Below, in pieces: positions 1 to 9,186 of a stretch of DNA of 10,247 nt. The position numbers and the translations under genes are program-made. Source of the stretch: CBDUXP01 sp965371225 [NCBI: uncultured bacterium] (GTDB taxonomy: Bacteria > Abyssobacteria > SURF-5 > CBDUXP01); NCBI GenBank assembly GCA_965371225.1, contig CBDUXP010000098.1, positions 1 to 10,247 of the forward strand. Reading direction: 5' to 3'. The notes under the pieces were generated by a model. The model was not told the origin of the DNA. It saw only the letters and a program-made list of their open reading frames with translations, and searched no databases. Positions within the stretch are counted from its first letter, which is position 1. Every line of letters begins with the position of its first letter.

Positions 1-2580
1 CCGGACGGCGGTGGCGGTGGGCGGACGGTCTGAGGGAGCTTGGGCCAGCAGTTGAAGCACCAGCGCGTCGAGGTCGGGCGGTACGGCACCGTTATGCGTA
101 GAGGGTGCATCGGGCGTGGCGTGCTTGTGCTGGTCGAGGATGGCGGCGCCGGGGCCGGTGAAAGGCAGGCGGCCGGTGAGCATTTCGTAAAGCACGACGC
201 CGAGCGCGTATAGGTCGCTCTGCGGTACCGGCGTCTCGCCGTGCGCCTGCTCCGGGGCCATGTACGCCACGGTGCCCACCACCGCGCCTTCTTCCGTGAT
301 GCGCGACTCCTCCTGCGCCAACGCCAGCCCGAAGTCGCCGAGCTTGGCGCGACTTTCGGAGCCGCCCGACCCGGCACCCGGGCTCTGCGCCTGCGGCGCA
401 ACCGCCCCCCCTGTAAACCAGACGTTGCCGGGCTTCAGATCGCGGTGCACGATCCCTTCGGCGTGCGCGACCGCAAGGGCGTCGCACAGTTCGATGGCGA
501 TGCGCACGGCGTCCGGTACGGGCATCGCCCCTGCCGCGAGCCGGTCCGTCAGATCGCCGCCGGGCATGTACTCGTTCACGATGTACAACTGCCCCGCGTC
601 CTCGCCGATGTCGTGCACGGCGACGATGTGCGCATGCGTCCCGAACCGCGCCATGGCCTGCGCCTCGCGCTCGATGCGTTTGCGGCCGGCGTCGGACAAC
701 CGTTCGGGGCGGATCATGGCGAGCGCCACGTCCCGCTGCAGCCGCGTGTCCCGCGCCAGGTAGACCCGCTTGAATCCCCCTTCGCCCAGCAGCCGCTCCG
801 CCACGAACCGCCCGCCCGCCACGCTCGGCAGCCGGATCTCTTCCGTCCCGCCGGCCGGTATCCGCTGCGTGGCGCCGGCCGTATCCGGGTCGCTGCTCCG
901 TTCGCGGAGTTGTGCGACTTCCAGCGCGCGGACGGCTTCGTGCGACAGTTCGCGCAGGAGGTCTAGCTCGGCAGGATCAAAGACGTCGCCGGACACGTGC
1001 GGCCCGACAGCCAGCCCGCCGATGACTTTCCCGTCGCGTTCGATGGGCAGCAGCACGGACGCGTTCAGCCGGTCCATGCACGCGCGGGATTCCTGCGAGA
1101 TCTTCGCGAAGCGCGGGTCCACGCGCAAGCTCTCCCGCTGGATGGCCTCCCGGCCGGCCACCAGCATCTGCACCAGCGGTTCTTCGCTGAGGTCGTGCAG
1201 CGCCGACAGGTCCGACTCGCCGCTGCCGCTGATGTGCTCCCGGTCATCAGTCACGCCGGGCAACAGGAACGCCGCGCCGCTGTCCGTGTCGCACACCCGC
1301 GGCGGCGCACCAGCCAATACGTGGAGCACATCCTCCCGGGTGGTGCAGGCCAGCAGTTCATCCCCGATAGTGCGGCGCAATTCCGGGAAGCCCGCCCGCT
1401 TCGGGTACAGCCACCTGTTCACCCGGGCGTTGAACCGCGGCAGCACAAACAGGACGGGGAGGAGTATTGCGGCAGACAACGCAGGTGAAATGGTGCCGGT
1501 GCCCCAGACGAGCACCAACAGCAAGCCTCCGGCGGCCGTGTACACCAGAACGCGCCGGACGGCGATTTGGGCGTCCACCAGATCCTGTCGCAAGGTGAGA
1601 TACGCCAGCGCAACAGGAAGCACACCAAGGGGAATCCACGTGATCCGCCAGTCGGAAATCCAGCCGGGCACAAGCAAGGCGACGACAGACGTGAGGATGT
1701 TTCCCCCGGCGCCGAAACCAACGGCAAAGAAGACGATCCACGCGCGCTGTCGAATAAGCAAGGGATAGCGACCGCGAAGCATGACCAGCGATCGGGAAAT
1801 AAAGGCGAGCACGCAGAGGGTTTGGAGGCCATACAGCAACAGCACAAGGCTGCGCAGCTCGGCCAGTGTGTGCGGCATGCGCATGGCCCAGGCCACTGCG
1901 AGCGGCACCAGGCCTGCACCATACACAGCGCCCAGCCATAGAGGCCGCCGTTGCAACGCGGGATGTACGGTGGGAAACACGAAACCGATGTGAAGGACGG
2001 TCGGCAAAGACAACGCAGACGCGCCCATTGCGAGAATTTGGGACGTGTTTCCCGCGTGCCAGGTCAGCCGGGTCAGCATGCTGAGTCCGCTACAGGCAGT
2101 CGTACCAAACACGAGGAGCGCCCAACTCCCCGGGTCATACGGCCTGATGGCAAACGTCACGAGCATGCAGAAGAAGATGGTAGCGAGACCGATACAGACG
2201 GCATTGAAATAGAAGACGTCCGTCCACGTCTGCGTCTGTACGGGCAGGGTCACTCGGACGAGGCTGCGGTCAAGGTCGCGTACCTGCAGCGTGTTTACGG
2301 CGCCGCGGTCGAGACGCTCAAGTGCAAGAATCTGGGGCCGCGTCAGTTCCGCGACGTCGACGCCGTTGAGCGTAATGAGCGTACTTCCCGCCCTCAGGCC
2401 GGCCTGCGCCACGTCCGGCCGGCCAGGAAACAGGATGTGTAACACGTACTCCACGCCGCTCCGGGGCTGCCCGATTTGACGCACGACGTCGTTCAGCCCG
2501 AGCCCAACGCTGAGCACATAGAACCCCACCAGCGCGCCGAACAGCGCCTTCTGCCGCGGTGTGCCCTCCCGTAAGCGCAT
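1..2580 (-). CDS. Membrane-anchored Ser/Thr protein kinase with PDZ-like, multi-TM and GAF-like sensor domains, WNK-like lysine placement (3' end outside window)
   Basis: One open frame of 860 codons runs from ATG 2580 to the left edge; an in-frame TAG at 2593-2595 rules out an earlier start. Domains in order: a hydrophobic helix (about 11-29); a PDZ-like region (about 42-115, with GLRAGSTLITLNGVDV); six to eight hydrophobic segments (about 122-380); a GAF-like domain (about 400-555, LLPIERDGKVIGGLAVG); a low-complexity linker; and a protein kinase domain from about 594. The kinase shows GEGGFKRVY (599-607), alpha-C Glu639, HRDLKPGN (712-719, base Asp714), DFG (749-751) and APE (775-777). The frame ends near the closing helix (SDRP), so the catalytic domain is almost complete. 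The beta3 VAIK lysine is Ala621, while Lys604 lies in the glycine loop as in eukaryotic WNK kinases. HRD and DFG are about 17 residues further apart than usual, with a Gly/Ala/Pro/Ser-rich insert. The likely role is phosphorylation of cytosolic proteins on Ser/Thr in response to a membrane or ligand signal; signal and substrates cannot be read here. Confidence 0.93.
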   Translation of the reverse strand, partial: MRLREGTPRQKALFGALVGFYVLSVGLGLNDVVRQIGQPRSGVEYVLHILFPGRPDVAQAGLRAGSTLITLNGVDVAELTRPQILALERLDRGAVNTLQVRDLDRSLVRVTLPVQTQTWTDVFYFNAVCIGLATIFFCMLVTFAIRPYDPGSWALLVFGTTACSGLSMLTRLTWHAGNTSQILAMGASALSLPTVLHIGFVFPTVHPALQRRPLWLGAVYGAGLVPLAVAWAMRMPHTLAELRSLVLLLYGLQTLCVLAFISRSLVMLRGRYPLLIRQRAWIVFFAVGFGAGGNILTSVVALLVPGWISDWRITWIPLGVLPVALAYLTLRQDLVDAQIAVRRVLVYTAAGGLLLVLVWGTGTISPALSAAILLPVLFVLPRFNARVNRWLYPKRAGFPELRRTIGDELLACTTREDVLHVLAGAPPRVCDTDSGAAFLLPGVTDDREHISGSGESDLSALHDLSEEPLVQMLVAGREAIQRESLRVDPRFAKISQESRACMDRLNASVLLPIERDGKVIGGLAVGPHVSGDVFDPAELDLLRELSHEAVRALEVAQLRERSSDPDTAGATQRIPAGGTEEIRLPSVAGGRFVAERLLGEGGFKRVYLARDTRLQRDVALAMIRPERLSDAGRKRIEREAQAMARFGTHAHIVAVHDIGEDAGQLYIVNEYMPGGDLTDRLAAGAMPVPDAVRIAIELCDALAVAHAEGIVHRDLKPGNVWFTGGAVAPQAQSPGAGSGGSESRAKLGDFGLALAQEESRITEEGAVVGTVAYMAPEQAHGETPVPQSDLYALGVVLYEMLTGRLPFTGPGAAILDQHKHATPDAPSTHNGAVPPDLDALVLQLLAQAPSDRPPTATAVR

Positions 2581-4071: not shown

Positions 4072-4908
4072 ATGGGAGACACGCTCCGGATCGCGGGCGT
4101 TCAATTGGACCCGACGCTCGGCGACGTGGCGGCGAACCGCGCGCTGGTGCTCCGCGCCACAGGTGAGGTGATCGATTCCGGCGCGCGGTTGGTGGTGCTG
4201 CCAGAATGCGCAGTCACCGGCTACTGTTTTGAGTCGAAGGCGGAAGCGCTGGAAGTGGCCGAGGAGGTGCCGGGGCCGACGACGGACGCGCTGATCGAGC
4301 GCTGCGCCGCTAGCGGCGCAGTCGTCGTGATCGGTTTGCTGCGCCGCGTGGAAGACGCCCTGTGCAACGCGGCGGTGGTGTGCGGCCCGGAGGGCATCAT
4401 CGGCGTCTATCACAAGACGCATTTGCCTACGCTGGGGGTCGACCGGTTCGTGACGGCGGGGACCGAGGCGCTGGCGGTGTATCCCACGCCGGCGGGCCGG
4501 CTCGGCCCGCTCATCTGTTACGACGCCCGCTTTCCCGAGCCGAGCCGGGTGCTGGCGCTCGCAGGCGCACAGATCATTACGCTGCCCACCAACTGGCCGC
4601 AGGGTAGCGAGAAGGTGCCCGAGTACGTGGTGCGCACGCGCGCCCTGGAAAATTGCTGCTACTTTATCGCGGTGAACCGCTGCGGCGTCGAACGCGGCTT
4701 CACCTTCGTGGGCCGGAGCACCATCGCCGGGCCGGACGGCAGCATCCTGGCGCAGGCCCGGGCGGACGGCCCGGACACGATCACTGCGGAGATCGACGTG
4801 AGCGCGGCGGATGTGAAAGACGTGATCGTGCGGCCGGACGCGCACGAGTTCCACTTCTGGCGCGACCGCCGCACGGACCTGTACGGCCCCATCGTCGGCG
4901 AGCGCTAG
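4072..4908 (+). CDS. Nitrilase-superfamily carbon-nitrogen hydrolase (amidase)
   Basis: The 278-residue protein has the complete catalytic triad of the superfamily: Glu45 in LVVLPECAVTGY, Lys115 in VYHKTHLP, and nucleophile Cys149 in LICYDARFPE. Further family signatures are RALENCCYFIAVNRCG and VGRSTIAGPDGSILA. Length and order are those of a single-domain aliphatic-amidase or carbamoylputrescine-amidase-like member, with no fusion domain or signal peptide, so it should act in the cytosol, splitting an amide or N-carbamoyl C-N bond. The natural substrate is not readable. ATG 4072 fits the usual start (LRIAGVQLDP just after it) and the -10 box 7 bases upstream. The CinA-type gene follows 72 bases later on the same strand. 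Confidence 0.93.
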   Translation: MGDTLRIAGVQLDPTLGDVAANRALVLRATGEVIDSGARLVVLPECAVTGYCFESKAEALEVAEEVPGPTTDALIERCAASGAVVVIGLLRRVEDALCNAAVVCGPEGIIGVYHKTHLPTLGVDRFVTAGTEALAVYPTPAGRLGPLICYDARFPEPSRVLALAGAQIITLPTNWPQGSEKVPEYVVRTRALENCCYFIAVNRCGVERGFTFVGRSTIAGPDGSILAQARADGPDTITAEIDVSAADVKDVIVRPDAHEFHFWRDRRTDLYGPIVGER

Positions 4909-4968
4909 GCCGCCGCCGTCCACAAGCGCGCCACCGGTAACACGGGTGCATTGTCCGTCCGGGCTTGC

Positions 4969-4974
4969 TAGGCT
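4969..4974 (+). promoter_or_regulatory. Putative -10 box (TAGGCT) of a leaderless cinA-type transcript
   Basis: TAGGCT ends 6 bases before ATG 4981. There is no Shine-Dalgarno; TTGTCC at 4951-4956 is too close (12 bases) to be a standard -35. The evidence is the position and the likeness to the boxes before the kinase and nitrilase starts. Confidence 0.4.
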
Positions 4975-4980
4975 GGGCGC

Positions 4981-5808
4981 ATGGCGGCGGTCGAACTCCT
5001 GGTGGTGGGTAACGAGATCTTGTCCGGCGCGACGTTGGATACCAATTCCCAGTGGATGGCCCGGCGCTTGACGACCCTGGGGGCCGACGTCACGCGCCGG
5101 ACGACGGTGGCGGACCTCCCCGAGCAGATTGGCGAGGCGGTGCGGGCCGCCTTGGCGCGCGGGGCGGCGATGCTCCTGGTGACGGGCGGGCTGGGGCCTA
5201 CGTTCGACGACATTACACTGCAAGCCGTCGGCGCCGCGCTCGGGCGCCCCGTGGCGGAGCGCCCAGATGCGCTCGCGTTCGTGGCGGGGCGCTATCGCGA
5301 CCTGTGTGATGCCGGGGTGGTGGAGACGGCGGACCTCCTGCCGGGGCGGCGCAAGATGGCGGCAGTGCCCGCGGACGCCGAGCTGATCCATAATGGAGTG
5401 GGCACGGCGCCGGGCGTGGTGCTCGAGGCGGACGGCCAGTATGTGCTGTGTTTTCCCGGCGTGCCGCGCGAGCTGTACGCCATGTTCGATGAGCCGAACG
5501 TGCAGACGTTGTTCCGTGACGTGTTGGGCGCGCGGTGCGTGCGCGAGGCGGAAGTGGAGACGCCGTTCAATGACGAGTCGGTGCTCGGGCCCCTGTGCGA
5601 CGAAGTGATGCAGCGTGTGCCCGGGGCCTACCTGAAATCGCGCGCGTCGCACTTCGACCACACGACGCAGATCCCCGTGCTCATCACGTGCGCCGGCCCG
5701 GACCCGGCGGAGGTGGAGCAGCGGCTGGCTCGCGCGCGGGACATGCTCGTGGACCTGTGCGACTTGCCGGCGGGTGCCGAGGGGGAGCGTCGCGCCCCTG
5801 CGGAGTAA
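4981..5808 (+). CDS. CinA-type (COG1058) molybdopterin-binding-domain protein lacking the C-terminal amidase domain
   Basis: The 275-residue protein carries the MoaB/Mog-like fold motifs of CinA: VGNEILSGATLDTNSQWMA near the N-terminus, TGGLGPTFDDIT in the middle, then NGVGTAPGVVLE and FPGVPRELYAMF. The last 100 or so residues correspond to the small linker domain that follows in CinA. Full CinA proteins are about 400 residues and end in a PncC nicotinamide-nucleotide amidase domain; here the frame stops (TAA) before it, with no broken remnant downstream, so this is a genuine short form as in many archaea and some bacteria. Characterised CinA proteins have ADP-ribose pyrophosphatase activity in this half, suggesting a pyridine-nucleotide role. 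The often quoted 'competence/damage-inducible' name is historical. It follows the nitrilase gene by 72 bases and may be co-transcribed. Confidence 0.9.
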   Translation: MAAVELLVVGNEILSGATLDTNSQWMARRLTTLGADVTRRTTVADLPEQIGEAVRAALARGAAMLLVTGGLGPTFDDITLQAVGAALGRPVAERPDALAFVAGRYRDLCDAGVVETADLLPGRRKMAAVPADAELIHNGVGTAPGVVLEADGQYVLCFPGVPRELYAMFDEPNVQTLFRDVLGARCVREAEVETPFNDESVLGPLCDEVMQRVPGAYLKSRASHFDHTTQIPVLITCAGPDPAEVEQRLARARDMLVDLCDLPAGAEGERRAPAE

Positions 5809-5810
5809 TC

Positions 5811-5837
5811 CGGTCCGCGCCCCCCGCGGCCGGACCG
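5811..5837 (+). terminator. Possible GC-rich hairpin after the cinA-type gene
   Basis: CGGTCCG (5811-5817) pairs with CGGACCG (5831-5837) across a 13-base loop, starting two bases after the TAA stop. There is no T-tract, so termination would be weak or factor-dependent. The placement just before the promoter at 5846 makes a unit boundary plausible. Confidence 0.3.
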
Positions 5838-5845
5838 CGTCCCCG

Positions 5846-5874
5846 TTGCACCCCCAATCCGCGGATAGTACAGT
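5846..5874 (+). promoter_or_regulatory. Sigma70-type promoter upstream of the MBOAT gene
   Basis: TTGCAC (5846-5851), a 17-base spacer and TACAGT (5869-5874) form a reasonable promoter in the 175-base gap after the cinA-type gene. A start near 5881 would give a leader of about 100 bases that includes a 28-codon reading frame and a perfect 14-base palindrome. Confidence 0.55.
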
Positions 5875-5890
5875 GGAGCATTCCCTCGTG

Positions 5891-5977
5891 ATGGCAATCA
5901 TGGTGACATGGCGGGCGGGCCGGGCGCCCGGCGCAACCCCGTGGCGACTGTGGGTCGGCCGCGGCCCGACTTTGTAA
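5891..5977 (+). CDS. Possible 28-codon leader peptide ahead of the MBOAT gene
   Basis: ATG 5891 opens a 28-residue frame ending in TAA at 5975-5977, six bases before the MBOAT start. The peptide is rich in Arg (five) and Trp (three: TWR, PWRLW), unusual for a chance frame of this size, but high-G+C DNA readily gives such peptides. It begins about 10 bases after the predicted transcription start and contains the palindrome at 5919-5932. No Shine-Dalgarno is visible. It could couple or attenuate translation of the next gene, or it may be nothing. Confidence 0.2.
   Translation: MAIMVTWRAGRAPGATPWRLWVGRGPTL
5919..5932. repeat. Perfect 14-bp palindrome in the MBOAT leader
   Basis: GCCGGGCGCCCGGC equals its own reverse complement. 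It lies inside the predicted leader RNA, about 50 bases before the MBOAT start. It could be an operator or fold as a short, tight stem; high G+C makes chance occurrence possible. Confidence 0.4.
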
Positions 5978-5983
5978 CGACGC

Positions 5984-7588
5984 ATGGAGTTTCATAAGCA
6001 GGAATTTTTCCTGTTCTTTATCGCGTGTTTTCTGGTGTATCCCTGGCTGTCGCGCCGGGGCCAGAACGGGTTCCTCGTCGGCGCGAACGTGGTGTTCTAC
6101 CTGGCCTCCGGCTTGGCGGACAGCTCGATCTTCGCGTTCGTGCTCGTGGCGAATTACCTGCTGGCGCGGCGGATCGCCGGCCACCCGGATTGGCGCACGC
6201 TATTCGCGGGCTGGCTCGGCGCCAACCTCATCATGCTCGCGTCGGGCGCGGGGCTCGCGGGCATTCTGGCGCTCCTCTCGGGCACGGACGTGAGCGGGTT
6301 CGCCGGTTTCGTCGGCCGGGATTTCCTGCTGTGGAACGGCATCATCGCGGGTTGGGCGGTGTTGTACGCGCTGCTCACGCGGCTTCCTACGCGCGCCTCC
6401 GTCTGGACGGCGGTGCTTCTGAACCTGGCCAACTTGGCCACGTTCAAGTACGCCACGTTCCTGCTGGGCAACGCCGCCTCGCTCTCCACCATGGTGGGTC
6501 TCGACTGGACGCCGCCCGACGTCACGCTCTGGCTGCCGCTCGGGATCTCGTTCTACAGCTTCCAGATCATGGCGTACCAGATCGACCTGTCCCGCCAGCA
6601 GGCGCAGGCGCCCGCGCACTTCGGCCAGTTCGCGCTGTTCATCGCGTTCTTCCCCCAGCTCATCGCCGGCCCCATCCTGCGCGCGCACCAGTTCCTGCCG
6701 CAATTGCAGGAGCGCCGGCGCATCACCATGGGCCACGTGAAGATGGGCGCGCTGTTCATCCTGTGGGGCTTGGTCAAGAAGGTGGTGTTCGGCGACACCA
6801 TCGCGACGATGATCGATCCACTGTGGCGCGACGTGGGCGCGCTCACGACGGCGCAGGCGTGGCTCGCCGCCATCGGGTTCAGCTTCCAGATTTACTTCGA
6901 CTTCAGCGGGTACAGCGACATCGCAGTGGGATTGGGCTATGCCTTCGGCTTCCAACTGCCGCGCAATTTCCATCAGCCCTACCTGAGCCGGGACCCGCGG
7001 GAGTTTTGGCAGCGCTGGCACGTGACGCTGTCGCGGTGGTTGCGCGACTACCTTTACATCACGCTCGGGGGCAGCCGCGGGTCGCGCACCGCGACGCTGC
7101 GCAACCTGATGCTCACCATGCTGCTCGGCGGCCTCTGGCACGGTGCGAGCTGGACCTTCGTCATCTGGGGCGGCTTGCACGGCGTCTGGCTGGTGCTGCA
7201 TCGAGTTTGGGCGCAGACGCCGCTGGGCACGCGCCTGCGGGAGCGCGGCGGCGTGCCCTACCGCGCGCTCTGCCACGTGCTGGTGGCGGTGATGCTGGTG
7301 GTCACGTGGGTCTTCTTCCGCGCGAGCAGCGCGACCGAGGCGGTGACCCTCCTGCGCGCCATGGTCGCGTTCACGGGCGGCGGCGCCTCCACGATCCTGA
7401 TGTGGGTGCTGGCGGGGACGGCTGTGCTGCACGTGCTCGAGCAGTTCGTGTTCGAAGACATTGCGCGCACCTCGGCCCGGTGGCATCGCATCTGGGCGCC
7501 CGTGCGGGGGTTCGTCTACGCGGCCACGTGGTTGCTGATCGTGATCTTCCAGCGTGACGAAGCCCCGTTCATCTATTTCCGGTTCTAG
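5984..7588 (+). CDS. AlgI/DltB-type MBOAT family membrane O-acyltransferase
   Basis: The 534-residue, strongly hydrophobic protein has about ten membrane segments and no cleavable signal. The MBOAT core is unmistakable: LPLGISFYSFQIMAYQID, FFPQLIAGPILRAHQFLPQL, IYFDFSGYSDIAVGLGYAFG, RDPREFWQRWHVTLSRWLRDY, and the active-site region LLGGLWHGASWTF with His386, followed by GGLHG with His399. Length and motif order match AlgI, which moves acyl (commonly acetyl) groups across the cytoplasmic membrane for O-acylation of an extracytoplasmic polysaccharide or other envelope polymer. AlgI-type proteins normally work with an SGNH-type partner such as AlgJ or AlgX; none is encoded next to it here. ATG 5984 gives the typical N-terminus; no Shine-Dalgarno precedes it. 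The following amidohydrolase lies 122 bases downstream and appears to have its own signals. Confidence 0.94.
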   Translation: MEFHKQEFFLFFIACFLVYPWLSRRGQNGFLVGANVVFYLASGLADSSIFAFVLVANYLLARRIAGHPDWRTLFAGWLGANLIMLASGAGLAGILALLSGTDVSGFAGFVGRDFLLWNGIIAGWAVLYALLTRLPTRASVWTAVLLNLANLATFKYATFLLGNAASLSTMVGLDWTPPDVTLWLPLGISFYSFQIMAYQIDLSRQQAQAPAHFGQFALFIAFFPQLIAGPILRAHQFLPQLQERRRITMGHVKMGALFILWGLVKKVVFGDTIATMIDPLWRDVGALTTAQAWLAAIGFSFQIYFDFSGYSDIAVGLGYAFGFQLPRNFHQPYLSRDPREFWQRWHVTLSRWLRDYLYITLGGSRGSRTATLRNLMLTMLLGGLWHGASWTFVIWGGLHGVWLVLHRVWAQTPLGTRLRERGGVPYRALCHVLVAVMLVVTWVFFRASSATEAVTLLRAMVAFTGGGASTILMWVLAGTAVLHVLEQFVFEDIARTSARWHRIWAPVRGFVYAATWLLIVIFQRDEAPFIYFRF

Positions 7589-7710: not shown

Positions 7711-9186
7711 ATGCGCCTCGATGACGACGCGGCCCCGCGCCTGCCGATCAAGCTGGACCCCACGTCAAACGGGGAATTCGTTCCGGTACCGCTGCCCCGT
7801 GCAGCGCTGTGCGCGAATGATCTAGCTGCGGCCGATGCGGCGGCGCACGCGCACCATGTGGGCTACCCGCGGCGCGCCTTCCTGGCCTCGGCGTGCGGAG
7901 CGGCCAGCACGCTGCTGGCCTTCAACCGGGCGTTCGCGCTCGGCGGTCCCCGCGGCGGGTTCTATCAGGTGGCGCCCGAGGCCGCGCTCGAACCCGCGGC
8001 GGCCGCGGTGGCAGTCGGCGGCGACGAGTTCATCTTCGACGTGCAGACCCACCACGTGAATCCGGACGGCCCCTGGCGCCGGCCGCTGGCGTTCTGGAAT
8101 ATGGCGTTGCGCACGTTCCCCCAGGCCAGGTGCGACAGCGGGCTGCTGAATTCGATCTTCGGTTCTATCGAATGCTTCTCGGCGCAGCACTTCGTAAAGA
8201 ATATCTTCCTCGACAGCGACACGGACTTGGCGGTGTTGAGTTTCGTGCCCGCGCTGCCCGAGGATGCGCCCCTCACCATTCTGGAGGGGAGTGAGACCCG
8301 GGGGATCGTCGAGGGCCTGGAGGGGACGCAGCGGCTGCTGTTGCACGGGGCCATACATCCGAACGTCCCCGGCGAGCTGGAGAAGATGGACGAGGTGGCG
8401 GAGCGGTGGCAGATCGCCGCCTGGAAGACGTACACGCAGTTCGGGCCCGGCGGCAAGGGCTACTGGCTCGACGACGAGGAGTTCGGCGTGCCGTTCATCG
8501 AGAAGGCGCGCGCGCTCGGTATCAAGATCATCTGCGTGCACAAGGGCTTGTCCTTCCCCAACATGGAGAAGCCCTACGCCGGGTGTCGCGACATCGGCGT
8601 GGTCGCCAAACGGTTCCCGGACATGACCTTCATCGTGTACCACTCCGGATTCGAACCGGATCTGACCGAGGGCCCCTACTCGGACGACGGGGAGGCGCAG
8701 GGCATCGACGGGATGATCCGCTCTCTGCGCGAGCACGACGTGCCCCCGAACAGCAACGTGTACGCCGAGCTGGGCAGTACGTGGCGGTACCTGATGCGCG
8801 ATCCCGACGCGGCCGCGCACTCGCTCGGCAAGCTGTTCACGCACGTGGGGCAGGACCGCGTGCTCTGGGGCACCGACTCCATCTGGTACGGCTCGCCCCA
8901 GGACCAGATCCAGGCGTTCCGCACGTTCCAGATTTCCGAGGCGTTCCGCGAGCAGTTCGGTTATCCCGAGATCACCCCGCACCTGCGCGCGCAGGTCTTC
9001 GGCCTCAACGCCACGGTGCCCTATCGCATCAGTCCGGAAGAGGTGCAGCGCCACGCCCGCGCCGACCGGATTCAGGCCATGAAGGCGACCTATGCCGAAG
9101 CGCCGGCGCCCACGTTTCGCACGTACGGCCCGCAGACCCGGCGCGAGTTCTTGCGCTTCCTGCGCCTCCACCCGCCGGGCGCTTAG
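7711..9186 (+). CDS. Tat-exported amidohydrolase-2 (ACMSD-like) family metal-dependent hydrolase
   Basis: The 491-residue protein has a 53-residue N-terminal leader, then a twin-arginine motif (YPRRAFLASA, Arg54-Arg55) and a hydrophobic stretch ending near FALGG, so it is probably folded in the cytosol and exported by Tat or membrane-anchored. The TIM-barrel domain shows the usual metal-site pattern: FDVQTHHV (His114, His115) on the first strand, CVHKG (His277), YHSG (His311) and LWGTDS (Asp389). This pattern fits the amidohydrolase-2 group, which includes decarboxylases and hydrolases acting on carboxylated or cyclic substrates. The specific substrate is unknown. From memory, relatives share the leader type (a conserved PIKLDPTSNGEF-like segment before the twin Arg), which supports ATG 7711 over a start nearer the twin Arg. 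No pathway partner is adjacent. Confidence 0.9.
   Translation: MRLDDDAAPRLPIKLDPTSNGEFVPVPLPRAALCANDLAAADAAAHAHHVGYPRRAFLASACGAASTLLAFNRAFALGGPRGGFYQVAPEAALEPAAAAVAVGGDEFIFDVQTHHVNPDGPWRRPLAFWNMALRTFPQARCDSGLLNSIFGSIECFSAQHFVKNIFLDSDTDLAVLSFVPALPEDAPLTILEGSETRGIVEGLEGTQRLLLHGAIHPNVPGELEKMDEVAERWQIAAWKTYTQFGPGGKGYWLDDEEFGVPFIEKARALGIKIICVHKGLSFPNMEKPYAGCRDIGVVAKRFPDMTFIVYHSGFEPDLTEGPYSDDGEAQGIDGMIRSLREHDVPPNSNVYAELGSTWRYLMRDPDAAAHSLGKLFTHVGQDRVLWGTDSIWYGSPQDQIQAFRTFQISEAFREQFGYPEITPHLRAQVFGLNATVPYRISPEEVQRHARADRIQAMKATYAEAPAPTFRTYGPQTRREFLRFLRLHPPGA

Follow-up and report, generated by a model that had tools for sequence, protein, structure and literature searches.

A bacterial receptor kinase with a WNK-type lysine relocation and the bacterial family that shares the swap

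The locus and its receptor kinase

The window, by which we mean the whole 10,247-nucleotide stretch of DNA analyzed (contig CBDUXP010000098.1, from an uncultured bacterium), carries at its first edge a minus-strand ORF for a receptor kinase, in which a membrane sensor and a GAF domain precede a protein kinase domain (Table 1). Nucleotides 596–795 of the minus strand, where the original prediction was placed, correspond to residues 596 to 662 of this ORF (1–2580). On the plus strand, positions 4072–7588 contain ORFs for a nitrilase-family hydrolase, a MoCF_biosynth (CinA-like) protein and an MBOAT acyltransferase, for which no link to the kinase is visible. These are followed by an amidohydrolase ORF at 7711–9186 (+), a relative of which, 59% identical, is found in genome G002 (we denote genomes, contigs and loci by handles beginning with G, C and L).

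Table 1. Features of the receptor kinase ORF, with positions in the window
Feature	Residues	Window	Strand	Basis or remark
Receptor kinase ORF	860 aa read	1..2580	-	C-terminus truncated at window edge; Pfam GAF + Pkinase
Membrane sensor	1-395	1396..2580	-	Hydropathy; low-confidence AF2 model (pTM 0.53); homology to 7 receptor cyclases
GAF domain	428-554	919..1299	-	Pfam GAF_2 / GAF; Foldseek
Protein kinase domain	594-856	13..801	-	Pfam Pkinase 5.7e-43; AF2 pLDDT 84.8; PknA/PknB fold Z ~31
Glycine loop GEGGFKRVY	599-607	760..786	-	Read from translation
Relocated lysine, WNK1 K233 slot	Lys604	769..771	-	Alignment, AF2; first residue of β2 in model
Usual β3-lysine slot, WNK1 C250 slot	Ala621	718..720	-	Alignment, AF2; within β3 in model
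αC glutamate, WNK1 E268 slot	Glu639	664..666	-	WNK1 alignment; E in 137/138 family domains
Catalytic loop HRDLKPGN	712-719	424..447	-	Sequence
Ala/Gly/Ser-rich insertion	~723-741	358..414	-	Separates catalytic loop from DFG; low model confidence
DFG; Phe750 at WNK chloride-site Leu369	749-751	328..336	-	WNK1 alignment
APE	775-777	250..258	-	Within MAPEQ (774)

Hydropathy and a low-confidence AlphaFold2 (AF2) model give the sensor a layout of one helix, a stretch of mixed strand and helix (residues 43–113) and then multiple membrane helices. Our guess is that segment 43–113 may be PDZ-like. In a Foldseek search with the model of sensor plus GAF, GAF-containing structures were among the best 50 rows.

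Homologues of the sensor were found in seven proteins (L184 and L197–L202) from 6 of 11 genomes of one order in the phylum of G002. Their membrane sensor and GAF domain are 32–37% identical to those of the window protein over approximately residues 1–562, and the homologous region of the window is 892–2580 (−). The output differs: by motif, each of the seven has a class III cyclase at its end, which Pfam confirmed in both proteins tested, whereas the window protein carries a kinase. A weaker relative of the sensor, in L107 (3240–5495; E 5.8e-8), ends in a histidine kinase. Counting the cyclases and the histidine kinase of its relatives and the kinase of the window protein, this type of sensor is found with no fewer than three kinds of output. 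Among the relatives examined, no second protein joining the sensor to a kinase like that of the window was seen.

In the translation, the glycine loop reads G599-E-G-G-F-K604-R-V-Y and β3 reads V618-A-L-A621, with K604 encoded by AAG at 771–769 and A621 by GCC at 720–718. Lys604 thus occupies the third-glycine slot of the loop, and Ala621 the slot of the usual β3 lysine. Alignment with M. tuberculosis PknB sets K604 opposite the Ser of GFGGMS and A621 opposite the β3 lysine. In the WNK1 alignment, the columns of K604, A621 and Glu639 coincide with K233, C250 and Glu268, and the 17-residue spacing is identical. The original prediction had described a VALA β3 lacking its lysine and a lysine in GEGGFKRVY, and both are as it described. 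Glu639, HRD, N719, DFG and APE are intact. The kinase therefore has the WNK-type configuration, with a lysine in the loop, at the third-glycine slot, and none at β3; of the features of a PknB-type (Hanks fold) domain, it has HRD, DFG and APE and lacks the β3 lysine (A621). A degenerate pattern for the loop has a single match in the window, and none of 200 shuffles contains one.

A bacterial family with the swapped lysine

We sampled relatives in two ways. Genome contigs were scanned with a DNA pattern in which the loop lysine was fixed and the β3 residue left free, and protein similarity to the window domain was used with no motif required. The pattern scan identified at least 119 loci; the matches listed numbered 121, of which 119 were distinct. 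The β3 residue in these 119 loop-lysine matches was Ala in 100, Gly in 10, Ser in 8 and Tyr in 1, and in none was it Lys. By record title, the matches listed comprise 108 Chloroflexota-type, 7 Deltaproteobacteria, 2 Actinomycetota and 2 Euryarchaeota loci, counts that come from titles alone, may include mislabelled bins and may be skewed by the order of the scan.

The similarity sample, which depends in part on the first since eight pattern-found genomes were searched first and some recurred in later similarity searches, yielded 54 distinct domains. All 30 domains with E < 1e-60 have the loop lysine together with Ala (23) or Ser (7) at β3, which we call swapped, and the remaining 24, with weaker scores, all have the canonical layout. 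In the motif-found seed genomes, the 11 closest domains were all swapped and the 20 weaker ones all canonical; in genomes that were not chosen by motif, the corresponding figures were 19 of 19 and 4 of 4. The score cut between swapped and canonical domains, which was chosen post hoc, falls between neighbors at 2.3e-62 and 3.1e-58 and is thus narrow in score and clean in trait. Close homologues with a normal β3 lysine, named in the original prediction as grounds for doubting it, did not appear among these 30 closest domains.

The swap is family-wide and strictly reciprocal in the sampled family. Both sites are covered in 184 of 201 phmmer rows (all but 17); duplicates included, these comprise 155 swapped and 29 canonical domains. 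Once duplicates are removed and coverage of residue 639 is required, 167 domains remain: 138 have the loop lysine and a β3 residue other than lysine, 29 have the reverse arrangement, and none has both lysines or neither. Since the swap is conserved across the family, we reject sequencing error or decay as its cause.

The β3 residue is Ala, Ser or Gly in 137 of the 138 family domains, and the αC glutamate is retained in equally many. All 138 members have Lys at 604, although this set was mostly collected by that lysine; among swapped domains whose genomes were not selected by motif, the lysine is present in 19 of 19. Six catalytic residues (K604, E639, D714, N719, D749 and E777) are jointly retained in 103 of 106 members with full coverage of these positions; the other 32 of the 138 are incompletely covered. 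The three exceptions have Gln at 639 (L078), Val at 714 (L064), or a residue other than Glu at 777 together with HQD for HRD (L057). Of 28 further positions typical of the family, the window kinase matches 14 (M643, an extra G647, G675, D676, W721 and G748 among them) and differs at 14.

Five full-length relatives all combine the kinase with AAA_16. A zinc ribbon lies at the N-terminus in four of them, a class III cyclase lies at the C-terminus in three, and TPR matches occur in three. The window protein has its membrane sensor and GAF domain in place of this zinc ribbon/AAA_16 layout. L072, L099 and L046 are zinc ribbon-kinase-AAA_16 proteins in which the kinase has the swapped lysine and a class III cyclase lies at the opposite end. 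The AAA part of L116 resembles a TOMM kinase/cyclase fusion model (290.6 of 705.75 bits).

How widely swapped kinases occur can be given as rough frequencies, since known-positive seed genomes were included, at most 8 or 12 candidates were scored per genome and the score cut was high: 8 of 282 genomes in the phylum of G002 (a ninth match, in G180, being canonical), 2 of 201 in that of G008 (matches in G341 and G358 being canonical), 8 of 296 in that of G006, 2 of 297 in that of G005 and, within the order of G002, 12 of 79, with all 13 matches swapped. G005, whose record is titled Deltaproteobacteria (contigs C23, C19 and C32), has seven swapped-lysine matches (L126, L132, L140, L148 and L176–L178), five of which fall within ~34 kb of one contig. 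The plasmid collection held no near match to the window; 104 of its records match the N-lobe, and the four inspected were all canonical. Viral contigs gave 0 matches for the window protein and for the loop pattern. As far as these partial tests go, there is no sign that the kinase is plasmid or virus cargo.

The original prediction supposed a small, little-described bacterial group. With at least 119 loci from the scan, "small" does not hold. "Little-described" fits what we found, as no paper on a bacterial loop-lysine family was encountered: titles and abstracts among the matches listed mention none, and motif strings such as GEGGKK matched 0 papers. A 2025 kinase atlas, which reportedly sorts bacterial kinases into 42 families, may name one.

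Predicted structure and candidate substitutes for the β3 lysine

An AlphaFold2 model of the kinase domain, built with 57 family sequences (pLDDT 84.8, pTM 0.84), places K604 at the start of β2, A621 inside β3 and E639 inside αC; pLDDT falls below 50 at residues 726–740, in the insertion, and at 754–768, in the activation segment. The closest solved folds among those listed are PknA, Stk1 and PknB (Z ~31). WNK1 (6cn9) superposes at Z 28.6, rank 21 among the structures listed and within 1 of other eukaryotic kinases. No structure of a family member was seen in the PDB among the best 60 of 600 hits of the family profile. The window kinase is also nearest in sequence to PknB-type kinases, M. tuberculosis PknB being its best solved relative (E 3.4e-45). 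PknB differs in retaining the β3 lysine and in having Ser instead of Lys at the loop slot, and the window kinase reaches only 250 of 450 bits against the NCBIfam PASTA kinase model.

How would such a kinase work? We envision a PknB-type Ser/Thr receptor kinase in the membrane whose ATP-anchoring lysine has shifted from β3 to the third-glycine position that opens β2. A small β3 residue (Ala, Ser or Gly) would leave room for the Lys604 side chain to reach across the pocket, where it would hold the α and β phosphates and pair with Glu639. Protein phosphorylation would then follow an otherwise standard mechanism, presumably under the control of the membrane sensor and GAF domain. In WNK1, catalysis is reported to require the relocated lysine (PMC1821047; PMC4718504). 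By analogy with K233 of WNK1, we infer that the side chain of Lys604 takes over the site vacated by the β3 lysine and that the enzyme is active, a reading to which we assign a probability of a little under 80%. The sequence tests bore out the original prediction of a bacterial receptor kinase in which the lysine is relocated as in WNK and the other catalytic motifs are intact.

It is also conceivable that a different basic residue substitutes for the β3 lysine. At residue 624, 135 of the 138 members have Lys or Arg, such that ALIK or AMIR could be taken for a shifted VAIK. Position 603 is likewise Lys or Arg in 133 members, and 605 in most, so that another loop residue might contribute. However, PknB has Arg in the 624 column beside its β3 lysine, as do 9 of the 29 canonical domains; the 17-residue spacing sets 621 on the β3 lysine; and 624 lies just beyond β3 in the model. 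On these grounds, we reject the reading of 624 as a shifted VAIK. As for 603, the window kinase has Phe, which is found in 0 of 138 family members. Together with the constancy of Lys604, including in genomes not chosen by its presence, these observations make substitution by another basic residue very unlikely.

A further possibility is that the family consists of pseudokinases that bind nucleotide or nothing and act as switches or scaffolds, with the loop lysine serving a structural role. The usual three-residue rule treats loss of the β3 lysine as a mark of a pseudokinase (PMC12599244). Several bacterial pseudokinase families described there, including DYD, DLHK and ActPs2, likewise lack this lysine, and alternative modes of ATP binding have been proposed for them. 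However, in the excerpted text of that paper, the seven bacterial families are characterized by other motif losses or other lysine replacements, and none is described with a loop lysine and intact HRD and DFG (PMC12599244). The joint retention of the HRD Asp, N719, DFG Asp, αC Glu and APE Glu with the loop lysine in nearly all fully covered members also argues against this reading, and we consider a family of pseudokinases unlikely.

Ancestry, the chloride site and implications

Of the 138 family domains, 94 were complete and were thinned to 57 at 85% and to 29 at 72% identity for tree building; 26 of the 29 canonical domains (three were omitted) and PknB made up 27 canonical rows. With columns 604 and 621 removed, the 29 family rows and the window kinase form a single clade relative to the canonical rows with support of 99/100, in a tree whose bootstrap was incompletely converged. 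When WNK1, PKA and CDK2 were added in a quick tree, attachment of the window kinase to the clade was weak, with support of 59, and the other 29 rows without it had 97.

Could the family be truly related to WNK, by common descent or by transfer, and have a pocket that senses chloride? The two share the lysine at the third-glycine slot, a small β3 residue, αC Glu, HRD, N, the spacing and the FK pair of the loop, and their folds superpose at Z 28.6. An AU test did not reject a family+WNK1 group (p-AU 0.482, with three long eukaryotic branches), and the six best bacterial matches of unmasked WNK1 are all in the family, the top one scoring 84.5 bits vs 80.4 for the best canonical domain. However, the median score of unmasked WNK1 is lower for the family (64.35 bits; 132 of 138 detected) than for canonical bacterial domains (69.5 bits; 28 of 29). 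With both swapped residues masked, the top match is canonical (82.5 vs 82.1 bits) and the medians are 62.1 for the family and 70.7 for canonical domains. With the usual residues restored, the non-WNK matches of WNK1 among the best 60 of 2,009 chains include CTR1, PAK, B-Raf, Nek7 and STK24 at 102–121 bits; one entry in the same set, labelled EGFR, scores 130 bits. WNK1 also clusters with PKA and CDK2 at a support of 99 in the quick tree, which carries long-branch warnings. A special kinship with WNK is thus not supported by the sequence scores. As the median score of WNK1 is no nearer to the family than to canonical bacterial kinases, the best reading is that the lysine relocation would be convergent and independent of eukaryotic WNK.

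The chloride site also bears on this question. In WNK1, chloride is reported to touch the backbone amides of Gly370 and Leu371 and to be surrounded by Phe283, Leu299, Leu369 and Leu371; the L369F mutation is activating, and replacement of Leu by Phe leaves the kinase insensitive to chloride (PMC7606576; PMC13397483). The window kinase has F750 at 369, L752 at 371, V655 at 283 and I667 at 299, so that only L371 matches, and DFG where WNK1 has DLG. Of the 106 family members with full coverage, 104 have Phe where WNK1 has Leu369, as canonical kinases do by alignment, and the position of Phe283 is mostly Val or Ile. Since Phe replaces Leu369 and other residues of the site differ, a WNK-type chloride site is probably absent from the window kinase. 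Chloride regulation, which the original prediction had left open, is therefore disfavored, and true WNK ancestry with a chloride-sensing pocket appears highly improbable.

In the excerpted text of a 2007 kinome survey, WNK is the only functional eukaryotic-type kinase (ePK) family without a β3 lysine (PMC1821047). The same survey proposes that, in CAK-chloro small-molecule kinases, the positive charge has shifted from position 72 to 55. These kinases have Arg at 55, Met at 72 and Phe for the αC Glu, and constitute a separate family (PMC1821047).

If the convergent, active-kinase reading is correct, the lysine move would have a second instance, in bacteria and on a PknB background, represented by well over 100 natural sequences; this would show that the move is repeatable and would argue for a revised rule on calling pseudokinases. 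It would also indicate that the move is separable from chloride sensing, with which it is paired in WNK, since here the relocated lysine coexists with the chloride-insensitive Phe. A more speculative and rather unlikely extension is that this large, mostly uncultured bacterial family evolved the WNK lysine transfer separately, is active, and uses the emptied β3 pocket to bind a regulatory ion or ligand other than chloride. In that case, regulation through the pocket would be a recurring consequence of moving the lysine.
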